From Candidatus Mcinerneyibacteriota bacterium (GTDB taxonomy: Bacteria > AUK180 > JAQVHJ01): 9,611 nt of DNA. Within the stretch, counting starts at the first letter, position 1; each line of letters begins with the position of its first letter. Shown here one piece after another: positions 4,113-9,493 of the stretch. The position numbers and the translations under genes are program-made. The stretch covers positions 1 to 9,611 of the forward strand of contig DAOVMD010000082.1 of the NCBI GenBank assembly GCA_030630935.1, in the 5' to 3' direction. Under the pieces are notes generated by a model. It saw nothing but the letters and a program-made list of their open reading frames with translations. It ran no database searches and was not told the origin of the DNA.

Positions 4113-4193
4113 AAAGAAACAAAAAAACAAAAAAAAGAAAATTTAACATGGACTTTAACGAGACTTACAAAAAATAATTTAAAAACGTTAGAG

Positions 4194-4236
4194 TGTCATT
4201 GCGAGGATTGAACGAAGTGAATGACGTGGCAATCTC
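4194..4236 (-). repeat. Dispersed 'TGTCATTGCGAGG' family repeat, copy 1
   Basis: The piece begins TGTCATTGCGAGGATTG and ends GGCAATCTC. Its reverse complement matches the 3' ends of the two 127-bp direct repeats (GAGATTGCCAC...CGCAATGACA), with a slightly longer middle. This type of intergenic repeat occurs in many unrelated bacterial genomes; its mobility mechanism is not evident here. Confidence 0.7.
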
Positions 4237-5309: not shown

Positions 5310-6281
5310 ATGAAGAAGAGATATCTTAGTAAACTAAGTTTAGTGTTTTTGTTTTTACTGATTATTTTTACAACACTGGGTTGTTCAAAAATGAGTGATG
5401 AAGAGAGGATTAATTTATATAAAAAGGAAACATATAAATTTCTTGATGAACATCAAGATTATTTTGTAAATCCTGAAACAACCCTAAAAGCAGAAGATAT
5501 GATTAAAGCTTACAATCCAACGGATGATGAATGTTTAGGAATTCAAAGTCAAAATTTATCTAAAATAGATATTGAAAAATTTACATTAGATTTTAAAATA
5601 GAAGATTATGCTGATAAAAATGATTTTTTACTTGAATTAGTATTGTTTTTTCATCTTACTAAAAAATGGGAAGCCACTTTATCAAAAGAAGATATTATAA
5701 TGACAAAAATTATGCCAATATTAAAAGGATCTGATATTAAATTAAAAATGCGCTGGATTTCATATTTAACAGAGTCATTACTTAGTATTCATAATGAAAA
5801 ACTTCCTTTTAAAGAAGAGAATAGGTATATGGTGATGGATTTTTTAATTGAGATTGTTTCAGATAAAAGTAATCCAGTTCTATGTAGATATTTAACTGCA
5901 CGTGCTTGGGAAGCAGGGGAAAATAGAGAAGAAGAAATATATAAAGTATTTAATATCTTACTTCAAGATGAAATTATATTTGAAAAAATGGGAACATTAT
6001 TGTGGTTTTTAAGAAAAGAAGCTCCAAAATTATATGATATGATGTTTTCCATTTTGGAGAAGAGAGAGAAATATTCGGATAAAATTATTTTAGGATCATT
6101 AGGGTTTTTCTTTAGAGATTCAGTTAATTTTCGCAATGATATAAAGGGAAGTAGGAGAAAAAGAATTAAAAAAATATTGAATGAAATATTAAAAGGAAAT
6201 GAAAACAATATTTTAAAAAATAAATCCGAGTTAATTAAATTAAATATAAAGGAAAATGAAAAAGAAGGAAAGTACAAATGA
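5310..6281 (+). CDS. Predicted lipoprotein of unknown function, alpha-helical
   Basis: I do not recognise the family. The 323-residue protein starts MKKRYLSKLS, followed by a hydrophobic stretch (about 9-22) and TTLGC. C25 is the likely lipidated cysteine, although T22 at -3 is not the ideal lipobox residue. The mature part looks largely helical, rich in Lys, Glu, Ile and Leu, with no cysteine pattern or catalytic motif; helix pairs at about 100-270 could suggest a HEAT-like solenoid, but this is a weak impression. The last 45 residues are very basic. AGGAGAG at 5298-5304, five bases before the ATG, fixes the start, and a strong promoter lies just upstream. The first 17 bases of this gene are identical to the first 17 of the second lipoprotein gene downstream. 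Codon use is very AT-rich (AAA, ATA, TTA, GAT), more so than in metG. Confidence 0.82.
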   Translation: MKKRYLSKLSLVFLFLLIIFTTLGCSKMSDEERINLYKKETYKFLDEHQDYFVNPETTLKAEDMIKAYNPTDDECLGIQSQNLSKIDIEKFTLDFKIEDYADKNDFLLELVLFFHLTKKWEATLSKEDIIMTKIMPILKGSDIKLKMRWISYLTESLLSIHNEKLPFKEENRYMVMDFLIEIVSDKSNPVLCRYLTARAWEAGENREEEIYKVFNILLQDEIIFEKMGTLLWFLRKEAPKLYDMMFSILEKREKYSDKIILGSLGFFFRDSVNFRNDIKGSRRKRIKKILNEILKGNENNILKNKSELIKLNIKENEKEGKYK

Positions 6282-6346: not shown

Positions 6347-6353
6347 GGTTTGT

Positions 6354-7949
6354 ATGAAGAAGAGATATCTATTATGGAGTGTGTTTTTTGTAATTGCGAG
6401 TGTATTGATATTTTCGTTTTTAAATAACGGGTGTTCGAATACAAAATCGACGAACATATCCCAGGTAAAAAATGAGAAAAAATTAAAGTATCCGGAATGG
6501 CCAGGATTGGATGAGAAGATTGAAAAATATAATAAATTAGTCGAGGGTTCTCCTCCTGAATTAAACGCAACGAGCCTTTTTAAAATGGGAGTTGAAAAAG
6601 AAGACATAAAATGGCATTTCGTGATTTATTTAGATTTGGATTTATCAGAAAATGAAATACAAAATGTAATTGAGGAGATTAATAAAAAAGGTGGAAAGAT
6701 TTACAAGAATATACAAAACCGATCTCTATATATTACTATTTTAAGTATGGAGAGGTTTAAAGATTATTATAATTATTTAAATTCTTTAAAGAAGACTGAT
6801 AAAAGAATAAGATACTTTTATATGAATGATTTAATTGAATATTCATGTTATCACTACTCTCCAATTGATAACACTACTCATATAATATTCAATGAAATTT
6901 TATCAGATGAAGAAAAGAAGGTTTTTGCAAAAAAATATAATTTAAAATTTAAAGAAGGAAATTATTTCAAATTTAATCCAGGACGAGATTTCATTAAGGC
7001 TTATGTGAAAATGTTTGAAGACCCACTTGTAAAAAGGGTTGCTCTCAATGATCTTTATGCTATTAAATCTCTACAAATACAAGAACCTGTTGATACTGAT
7101 TTTAAAAACAAACTTCAGTGGTCTTTAAAATCAAAAAATGATAAAGAACAAAAAGATGAAATTAAGGATAATGGTGATTTGAAGTATCCCGAATGGCCGG
7201 GATTGGATGAAAAGATTGAAGAATATGAAGAAGTTATTAAAGGTGGTAAGAAAGTATATTCAAAAGATTATACAAATTTAGCACGTTTAAAAATAGAACC
7301 TGAAGATATTAAATGGCATTTATGTATTTATGTAATTGGCATAAGAGGTAGTGATAAGTATTTATTTAAAAAAGAGTATTATTTCCCGATAGAAATAGAT
7401 AATTTAATAAAAAGAATTGCGAAGGAAAATAATTGTGAAATACATAAAATAAGTAAGATTTATGGGAGTAGAAAGTATTACATAACTATTAAGAATTATA
7501 AGAAGGAAGAATTAAGAAGATATTATGATCTTTTTAAAATACATAAAGAAATGATAGAAATCAAAACAGATTATCCTAAAAGAATAAGAACAATTAAACT
7601 ACCTTTAATAGGAAGAGTTAGGGTTTATGTTAATTCACTAATAGAATTTAGTATTGGACATCATAGGCCAATTGATATTACAGAAATTCCTATTCGTTTT
7701 TACGATAATGTTACCGAAGAAAAGATTAAGCAGTTTATGAAAAAATATAATATAAAAAGATATAAGAAAAAAACTTTAGGTAAAAATAGGTATGCAGTAT
7801 ATTATAAAGGCAAAGACGAGGATTTTGTAAAATTTTATGTTTCAATTCAGGAAGATCCTATTGTAAATTATGTATCTCTATATGGTTGGGCAAAAGTAAA
7901 ATCATGTAGTGATCAATATTACTATAAACAATGGTATTTAGCGCAATAG
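6354..7949 (+). CDS. Predicted lipoprotein with two tandem copies of a subtilase-propeptide-like region
   Basis: A 531-residue exported protein: MKKRYLL, hydrophobic stretch (about 8-23) and NNGC with C27 as likely lipid site. The body is two homologous halves. Half 1 (44-258) and half 2 (276-528) both start LKYPEWPGLDEKIE and share EDIKWH, LIE-F/Y-S, PID and FEDP/QEDP blocks. Each half ends with a strand-helix-strand-strand-helix-strand-like segment (174-240 and 443-515) resembling peptidase S8 propeptides (I9-like), including the EDPxVxxV element, then a QW(S/Y)L stretch like the first residues of a mature subtilase. No Asp/His/Ser protease domain follows; translation stops at Q531. It may be an inhibitor or chaperone-like lipoprotein, or a remnant of a protease. 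GAGG at 6345-6348 supports ATG 6354 over an in-frame ATG at 6318. Confidence 0.82.
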   Translation: MKKRYLLWSVFFVIASVLIFSFLNNGCSNTKSTNISQVKNEKKLKYPEWPGLDEKIEKYNKLVEGSPPELNATSLFKMGVEKEDIKWHFVIYLDLDLSENEIQNVIEEINKKGGKIYKNIQNRSLYITILSMERFKDYYNYLNSLKKTDKRIRYFYMNDLIEYSCYHYSPIDNTTHIIFNEILSDEEKKVFAKKYNLKFKEGNYFKFNPGRDFIKAYVKMFEDPLVKRVALNDLYAIKSLQIQEPVDTDFKNKLQWSLKSKNDKEQKDEIKDNGDLKYPEWPGLDEKIEEYEEVIKGGKKVYSKDYTNLARLKIEPEDIKWHLCIYVIGIRGSDKYLFKKEYYFPIEIDNLIKRIAKENNCEIHKISKIYGSRKYYITIKNYKKEELRRYYDLFKIHKEMIEIKTDYPKRIRTIKLPLIGRVRVYVNSLIEFSIGHHRPIDITEIPIRFYDNVTEEKIKQFMKKYNIKRYKKKTLGKNRYAVYYKGKDEDFVKFYVSIQEDPIVNYVSLYGWAKVKSCSDQYYYKQWYLAQ

Positions 7950-8052
7950 TGTGCCGGCCTATGACTTATGACTTGGGTAATAGGGTTCCGGTCTTTTATA
8001 TCTCATATTAAAATTAATCATCTTTGAAATCTCAGAAAGATAAGAGTAAAAT

Positions 8053-8082
8053 CAGTAGGGGCTACCGGCCGGTCGCCCTGAT
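8053..8082 (+). repeat. AGTAGGGG-headed palindrome, copy 2
   Basis: Head AGTAGGGG, then a stem GGGCTACCGG/CCGGTCGCCC with one mismatch in ten pairs, then TGAT. Copy 3 lies about 70 bases away in opposite orientation. Confidence 0.68.
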
Positions 8083-8212: not shown

Positions 8213-8250
8213 GCACAGCCTCTTTGATAGAAAGCACAGCCTCTTTGATA
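8213..8250 (+). repeat. Tandem 17-mer at the left edge of direct repeat D
   Basis: GCACAGCCTCTTTGATA occurs at 8213-8229 and again at 8234-8250, a 21-base period. The second unit runs into the 127-bp repeat, so the end of that element is duplicated here. The first unit also forms a small hairpin with upstream bases (GAGGC-ACA-GCCTC, 8210-8222). Confidence 0.7.
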
Positions 8251-8368
8251 ATGACCCAGAACCACGCACTTTGTTAGGGTATCTGGGCGCTGCATTCAGG
8301 CGTTCTTTCCCTGCAAGCAGGGTTTATAAAAGAGATTGCCACCGTCACTACGTTCCTTCGCAATGACA
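8242..8368 (+). repeat. 127-bp direct repeat D, copy 1, flanking the toxin-antitoxin operon
   Basis: Matches 9367-9493 over 127 bases with 5 differences and no gaps. It contains a CCCAGA/TCTGGG inverted repeat (8255-8260 with 8282-8287), a perfect CCCTGC-AA-GCAGGG hairpin (8309-8322), and ends in the GAGATTGCC...CGCAATGACA family repeat. The two copies bracket hepT-mntA in the same orientation. Confidence 0.85.
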
Positions 8369-8669: not shown

Positions 8670-9011
8670 TTATTTTTCGTTTTCTAAGATTATATTAAAA
8701 TGAGATTTAAGAAGGGGGATATCTTTTTTTACTGTATTCCAGACAATATCAATGTCTACACCGAAATAATCATGTATGACTTTATCTCTCATTCCTGCCA
8801 TCTGCTTCCAGGGGACATTGCTGTATTTTTGTTTAAATTCATTGGTTAATCTTTTAGCTGCTTCGCCGATTATTTCAATTTCTCTTATAACGGCTGCTTG
8901 CATCATTTTATTCTCTTTAAACTGTTCTTTATGTACATTTTGAGTGTATTCTTCTATCCTTAAAACTGCATCAAGGATATGTTTAAGATAAATGTTATTG
9001 TTTTTTTTCAT
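8670..9011 (-). CDS. hepT: HepT-like HEPN-domain RNase toxin (DUF86)
   Basis: The 113-residue product is an all-helical HEPN protein with the RX4HXY active-site motif at R75-H80-Y82 (RDKVIHDY), as in HepT toxins, which act as RNases when dimeric. The GEAAKRL segment (49-55) and NVPWKQMAGMRD are typical of the family. Its ATG overlaps the stop of the nucleotidyltransferase gene by four bases (ATGA), and AAGG lies about ten bases upstream, so the two are translationally coupled. In characterised HepT/MntA pairs (type VII toxin-antitoxin), the antitoxin adds AMP to the tyrosine of this motif, here Y82. The length is close to the family norm and nothing appears broken. No terminator was seen after the stop at 8670. 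Confidence 0.93.
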   Translation of the reverse strand: MKKNNNIYLKHILDAVLRIEEYTQNVHKEQFKENKMMQAAVIREIEIIGEAAKRLTNEFKQKYSNVPWKQMAGMRDKVIHDYFGVDIDIVWNTVKKDIPLLKSHFNIILENEK

Positions 9012-9292
9012 TGATAAATTACCTTCATCTCTTTTTTTATAGAATCGATAAGATAAGGACTGATTGAATTTTCTGTAAGCAAGTCTACCTTACGACCCAG
9101 GGATGCATAGAGTTCCTGCTCTATTCCTACGATTTCCAACAAACTTATTTCACCGATAAATTCTACAATTATGTCAATGTCACTTACAGGGGTCTGTTCA
9201 TCCCTGGCATAGGAACCAAATATAGAAATCTTCTTAACCCCATGCTTTTTTAAAATAGAAATTATCTCTTCATATATTTTTTCTTTTTTCAT
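9008..9292 (-). CDS. mntA: MntA-like minimal nucleotidyltransferase antitoxin
   Basis: A 94-residue minimal nucleotidyltransferase. The defining GSX10DXD motif is intact: G26-S27, then ten residues, then D38-I-D40. D70 in RKVDLL is the third acidic residue expected for metal and nucleotide binding. In known pairs this protein neutralises HepT by adding AMP groups to its active-site tyrosine. It precedes hepT and overlaps it by four bases. The start is fixed because an in-frame TGA lies 18 bases upstream and no other start codon lies between. There is no ribosome binding site upstream, and a promoter -10 box ends only nine bases before the ATG, which suggests a leaderless or near-leaderless mRNA. 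The operon sits between 127-bp direct repeats. Confidence 0.93.
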   Translation of the reverse strand: MKKEKIYEEIISILKKHGVKKISIFGSYARDEQTPVSDIDIIVEFIGEISLLEIVGIEQELYASLGRKVDLLTENSISPYLIDSIKKEMKVIYQ

Positions 9293-9330: not shown

Positions 9331-9366
9331 GAAAATTAGAAACGAGTCAATCTTAGAGTACCGGCT

Positions 9367-9493
9367 TCTTTGATAATGACCCAGAACCACGCACTTCGTT
9401 AGGGTATCTGGGCGCTGCATTCAAATGTTCTTTCCCTGCAAGCAGGGTTTATAAAAGAGATTGCCACAGTCACTACGTTCCTTCGCAATGACA
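9367..9493 (+). repeat. 127-bp direct repeat D, copy 2
   Basis: Same orientation as copy 1 and offset by 1125 bases. The five differences include four transitions (T8272/C9397 and GGC/AAT at 8298-8300 versus 9423-9425) and one C/A change near 8334/9459. The CCCTGC-AA-GCAGGG hairpin is unchanged (9434-9447). Flanking sequences differ on both sides. Confidence 0.85.

Follow-up and report, generated by a model that had tools for sequence, protein, structure and literature searches.

The gene at positions 6354–7949 (+) raises the question of what a protein may do that resembles the propeptides of subtilases and ends where the protease should begin. It lies in a window of 9,611 nucleotides from a Candidatus Mcinerneyibacteriota bacterium, which constitutes contig C201 of a 3.16 Mb assembly in 471 contigs (80% complete), and encodes a product of 531 aa followed by a TAG stop codon, here called P0001. 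A preliminary description had interpreted P0001 as a duplicated lipoprotein made of two propeptide-like halves, and had suggested either a protease inhibitor or folding helper in trans, or the stump of a lost protease. All features of the gene given below are located on the plus strand.

The duplication holds. The two halves align over 253 columns with 36% identity and 51% positives (E 5e-31), and every sequence block named in the preliminary description could be located in them. Their Smith-Waterman score of 306, while the highest of 1000 shuffles is 81, places the duplication far beyond chance; when the LKYPEWPGLDEKIE block, representing the conserved leader, is left out, the halves still score 214 versus 84 in shuffles. 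Half 1 (6483–7130) comprises an LKYPEWPGLDE leader and two predicted ferredoxin-like subdomains, the C-terminal one at 6825–7073, and extends to a QWSL motif (7116–7127). Half 2 (7179–7946) has a second leader and again two subdomains according to the halves alignment and the structure model, located at 7305–7631 and 7632–7901, and ends on QWYL (7929–7940); it has no second signal peptide. The N-terminal ferredoxin-like subdomain of each half is absent from the preliminary description. The blocks occur in half 1 and half 2, respectively, at residues 44 and 276 (LKYPEWPGLDEKIE), 83 and 317 (EDIKWH), 160 and 429 (LIE-x-S), 170 and 439 (PID), 222 and 500 (EDP-x-V), and 255 and 526 (QWSL/QWYL). 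Hence, the offset of 232 residues reported earlier is correct for the first block in the leader only; further on it amounts to 234–278, with 278 at EDP-x-V, because half 2 has insertions. The stop codon said to follow directly after QWSL/QWYL is likewise a property of half 2, where it comes two residues later (QWYLAQ), while half 1 reads through QWSL into half 2. An assembly as fragmented and incomplete as this one, with many dispersed repeats and paralogues, might in principle have joined two paralogues into an apparent tandem. We consider such an artefact very improbable: the frame is open across the junction of the halves, half 1 is only ~89% identical in DNA to its paralogue on contig C308, and identity within the repeated block reaches only 86% over 58 bp.

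At the N-terminus, the sequence has a signal peptide up to Cys27 (FSFLNNGC; 6354–6434), which is common to the paralogues. Inspected by eye, it consists of a hydrophobic stretch and Cys27, with unusual residues at positions -3/-2 (N-N-G-C); the paralogue on C229 carries LLQSC. A lipoprotein signal with a plausible, if atypical, lipobox is probable, and P0001 is probably membrane-anchored. The signal is shared by P0001, by its relatives on C308, C336, C128, C242 and C66, and by an unrelated gene on C182. At the DNA level, the first 120–176 bases (signal and leader) are ~75–82% identical between several otherwise divergent genes. This shared 5' block covers 6352–6530 of the window and 4116–4235 of locus L016, and is also found in the unrelated gene on C182, which encodes a PQQ-propeller protein; it appears as if 5' ends had been exchanged between genes.

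Common family collections do not reveal the identity of the halves. Scans of Pfam and NCBIfam assigned P0001 to no family (one chance match at E 0.1), and a sequence profile compared with the PDB yielded nothing beyond chance matches. Inhibitor_I9 (PF05922), the profile proposed earlier for this check, is not matched by P0001 above its curated cut-off, nor is it matched anywhere in the genome. The prodomain type that does fit is the fervidolysin-like one. As a reference set, 30 loci matching PF22148 (fervidolysin-like prodomain) were taken from relatives, with the sequences cut before the junction to the enzyme. The C-terminal subdomain of the family aligns with these prodomains in hhalign at 91%, with E 1.1e-6 and a score of 38.05, and the register is kept between the first and the last strand. 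Column shuffles of this comparison score 16.2 at most, and 0 out of 200 reach 38.05. An ACT alignment, used as a control from another family of the same fold, gave 0.1% and a score of 8.2, and ACT homology was therefore rejected. When the junction is included, hhalign reports 97% with an end-to-end alignment that covers the PNDP...QW motif. The comparison thus supports a relation of P0001 to the fervidolysin-like prodomain type. The N-terminal subdomain scores 20.1 versus 16.8 in shuffles, yet reaches only 6.5% in hhalign, and we do not call it a prodomain. Outside this genome, a 277-aa open frame at locus L064 (G046, C7) matches the fervidolysin-like prodomain at E 3e-4 and has no visible S8 motif; possibly, it represents another prodomain-only protein in a distant bacterium.

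Structure prediction is in agreement with this assignment at low confidence. Both models were built from window sequences only, with two alignment rows each. In the model of half 2 (half 1 as second row; pLDDT 52.6, pTM 0.56) two ferredoxin-like subdomains follow each other, and a Foldseek search with the whole model returned common ferredoxin-like folds (ACT, RRM, ribosomal S6), none of them at E <= 0.001. The model of the half 1 C-terminal subdomain (paired with its half 2 counterpart in the second row; pLDDT 54.1) gave Foldseek matches at E ~0.5 or worse. Using VIA-align, the same low-confidence model retrieved prosubtilisin E (3whi; Z 5.7, 4.0 Å, 63 residues), 3cnq, 1spb and 1scj, as well as POIA1 (1v5i; 5.3), the furin-bound PC1/3 prodomain (9fid; 5.3) and PCSK9 (2p4e; 4.7). 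These S8 propeptides, at Z 4.7–5.7 and hence below 8, share the list with other chains of ferredoxin-like fold, ribosomal S6 among them, which reach the same Z. The model agrees with the sequence evidence for an S8 prodomain and would not stand alone. Between profile and model, the likeness to subtilase propeptides seen in the preliminary description is upheld.

The full-length homologue that the description proposed to look for, one that includes a catalytic domain, is present in the same genome. It is encoded on the minus strand of contig C336 (locus L011, 4563 to 1), with a frame still open where the contig ends, and exhibits a P0001-like signal, the LKYPEW leader, both subdomains, PNDP at residue 281 and QWYL at 296. 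After QWYL, the protein continues into an S8 domain with Asp328, His399, the oxyanion Asn497 and Ser570, and a PF00082 match at 3.4e-14; homologues of P0001 thus do not always end where P0001 ends. The pro-region directly N-terminal to PF00082 is 32% identical to P0001 residues 268–519. QWYL of half 2, the start of the mature enzyme, corresponds to C336 residues 296–299 before Asp328, and QWSL of half 1, aligned with the same motif, would be a remnant of the prodomain/catalytic-domain junction. P0001 itself has no catalytic Asp/His/Ser domain, its frame ending after QWYLAQ. In view of the C336 homologue, P0001 almost certainly represents two S8 subtilase pro-regions without a protease. It shares with the PF22148/PF05922 pro-regions the predicted ferredoxin-like C-terminal fold, the order of strands and helices, the PNDP...QW junction and, in C336, the S8 domain that follows; it differs from them by the missing Pfam match, the two copies, the extra N-terminal subdomains and the absence of a catalytic domain. 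In the genome, the complete protease turned up a single time, on a broken contig. Directly upstream of it, L011 4802–5206 (minus strand) holds the tail of a second copy, 95% identical, whose beginning lies off the contig, and the full-length enzyme may therefore be tandemly duplicated. The C336 protease also matches the PrtP model weakly (7.2e-11), far below the cut-off of that model.

The point at which the catalytic domain was lost can be located for half 2. The stop codon TAG (7947–7949) coincides with the initial three bases of TAGGGTGCCGGCCTATGACTTATGACT, a dispersed repeat that covers 7947–8060 (+), has the left end TAG(G)GTGCCGGCCTATGACTTATGACT and shows 16 matches in the genome. The copies displayed begin at the same base and have unrelated flanks. 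A stop that is carried by a repeat and falls at QWYL suggests that half 2 is a protease gene cut at the prodomain/catalytic junction, and we regard a truncated protease as the best reading of this half. As half 1 retains QWSL, a catalytic domain was probably present in the ancestor of this half as well. Taken as a whole, P0001 is likely to have arisen by truncation of protease copies, and the repeat-borne stop is direct evidence for the origin as a stump of a lost protease that the preliminary description had offered as one option. Downstream of six prodomain-only or shortened members, a search for a relic of the catalytic domain gave nothing convincing (best E 0.017). A further copy of the repeat lies 24 bases past the stop of the C128 paralogue.

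Such an origin leads to the question whether P0001 is anything more than debris. Subtilase copies may have lost their catalytic domains by repeat-associated rearrangement and remained open, yet functionless. The stop codon at the edge of a dispersed repeat fits this explanation, as do QWSL and QWYL, which have no obvious use absent a protease. Moreover, the pro-region family is plainly decaying in places, since the C242 member has an internal deletion that removes the middle of the pro-region and the C66 member carries a frameshift. There is also no orthologue in relatives to show that the tandem form is conserved: homologues of P0001 were found neither in 97 other genomes by single-sequence search, nor in 6 other genomes of the phylum by profile search, nor in the wider contig collection genome_contigs. 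On the other hand, 531 codons of an AT-rich frame have stayed without a stop, and several prodomain-only copies keep the entire pro-region. The paralogue on C308 consists of the prodomain part only (236 aa) and is 85% identical to P0001 half 1 over residues 1–241; further prodomain-only paralogues are located on C128 (292 aa) and C229 (234 aa). In a tree of six domains, only the pair of half 1 and C308 is well supported. This pair shows dN 0.082 and dS 0.235 (ratio 0.35), a synonymous excess at Fisher p 1.4e-4, no stops, and an indel that is in frame. Approximately 6.8% of random changes would create a stop, while none is found among the 71 changes between half 1 and C308; under neutrality, the chance of zero stops is 0.7%, or 8% if only half of the changes occurred on the window lineage. 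The constraint favours maintenance, although it could partly predate the loss of the catalytic domain. Weighing both sides, we hold a functionless remnant to be possible, but not the likelier outcome.

The remaining features of the window can be described briefly. Upstream, 5310–6281 encodes a signal-bearing protein of 323 aa with no Pfam or NCBIfam match. This lipoprotein has three paralogues (C251, C62 and C29; 33–35% identity), which are located beside different genes; an operon with P0001 was discarded, as no conserved link exists. Downstream, 8670–9292 (minus strand) carries a HepT-like ribonuclease (PF01934) beside a small nucleotidyltransferase (PF18765), a layout that corresponds to a HepT/MntA toxin-antitoxin pair. 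The pair is flanked by a direct repeat of 130 bases (8239–8368 and 9364–9493; 95% identical).

As far as function is concerned, we propose the following scenario. Duplicates of a C336-type protease gene would have lost their catalytic part, in half 2 exactly where the dispersed repeat supplies the stop, and a second pro-region copy would have been added in head-to-tail order, with a single probable lipoprotein signal in front of both. The product would be exported and lipid-anchored, and its C-terminal prodomains would bind the C336-type protease in trans at the membrane, as a separated prodomain does. P0001 would then be an anchored inhibitor or folding helper of that enzyme. C308 and C128 end near the usual prodomain end, as judged from the alignment, which would suit a product-like inhibitor, whereas half 2 extends beyond it. 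As the best explanation of the whole, from protease-derived tandem pro-regions to an anchored protein acting in trans on a C336-type enzyme, this scenario has in our view an even chance of being right. The trans-acting role taken by itself, which is argued by analogy, falls somewhat short of that. Only tentatively do we extend it to an entire family of anchored prodomains, one of them doubled, which would have been cut from the cell's own surface protease and would control or fold the protease that remains.

The analogy draws on several studied proteins. When provided in trans, the separated CspB prodomain of Clostridium rescues folding of the enzyme and blocks its active site (PMC3567191), which is the mechanism proposed here, although the CspB prodomain normally lies within its enzyme. 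The propeptide of pernisine inhibits the enzyme to which it belongs tightly and selectively (PMC10580911). SUB1 is inhibited by the stand-alone protein SUB1-ProM, and stand-alone propeptides are potent inhibitors (PMC6993865). P0001 resembles this propeptide mimic and TgMIC5 (PMC6993865), as well as the stand-alone I9 inhibitors POIA1, yeast proteinase B inhibitor and Arabidopsis SPI-1 (MEROPS I9), in having a propeptide-like domain without a protease of its own; a candidate cognate subtilase is present in the genome. Those proteins are eukaryotic and are described as mimics of propeptides, whereas P0001, a putative inhibitor, comes from a bacterium, is tandem and probably lipid-anchored, and shows its derivation from a protease gene. 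The known stand-alone propeptide inhibitors are described as having no significant similarity in sequence to genuine propeptides and as possible products of convergence (PMC6993865). P0001 can also be likened to dentilisin of Treponema denticola (PrtP-PrcA-PrcB; PMC8167434), in which separate lipoproteins are accessory to an acylated subtilase; dentilisin is encoded in an operon, while the prodomain-only genes are scattered here. No subtilase gene adjoins that of P0001. This lack of linkage would also fit a pro-region recruited to a purpose unconnected with proteases, such as surface binding or scaffolding, and so would the N-terminal subdomain without a clear prodomain match. I9-like domains are reported to have found other uses in plant DAG-like proteins (PMC5515838). 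Since the C336 protease has the full N-terminal region as well, that subdomain included, we consider recruitment unlikely.

A stand-alone subtilase propeptide is already known as a kind of protein. In the open literature searched, we found no tandem prodomain in a bacterial lipoprotein, which does not prove its absence; the tandem, probably lipid-anchored bacterial form together with its parent enzyme was not met there. If P0001 is only a remnant, the locus is a case of ordinary gene decay beside repeats. One genome holds an enzyme with its pro-region, copies without the catalytic domain and decayed copies, with one truncation point readable in the DNA. Such a set of genes would allow the step from a protease to a stand-alone prodomain to be tested directly.
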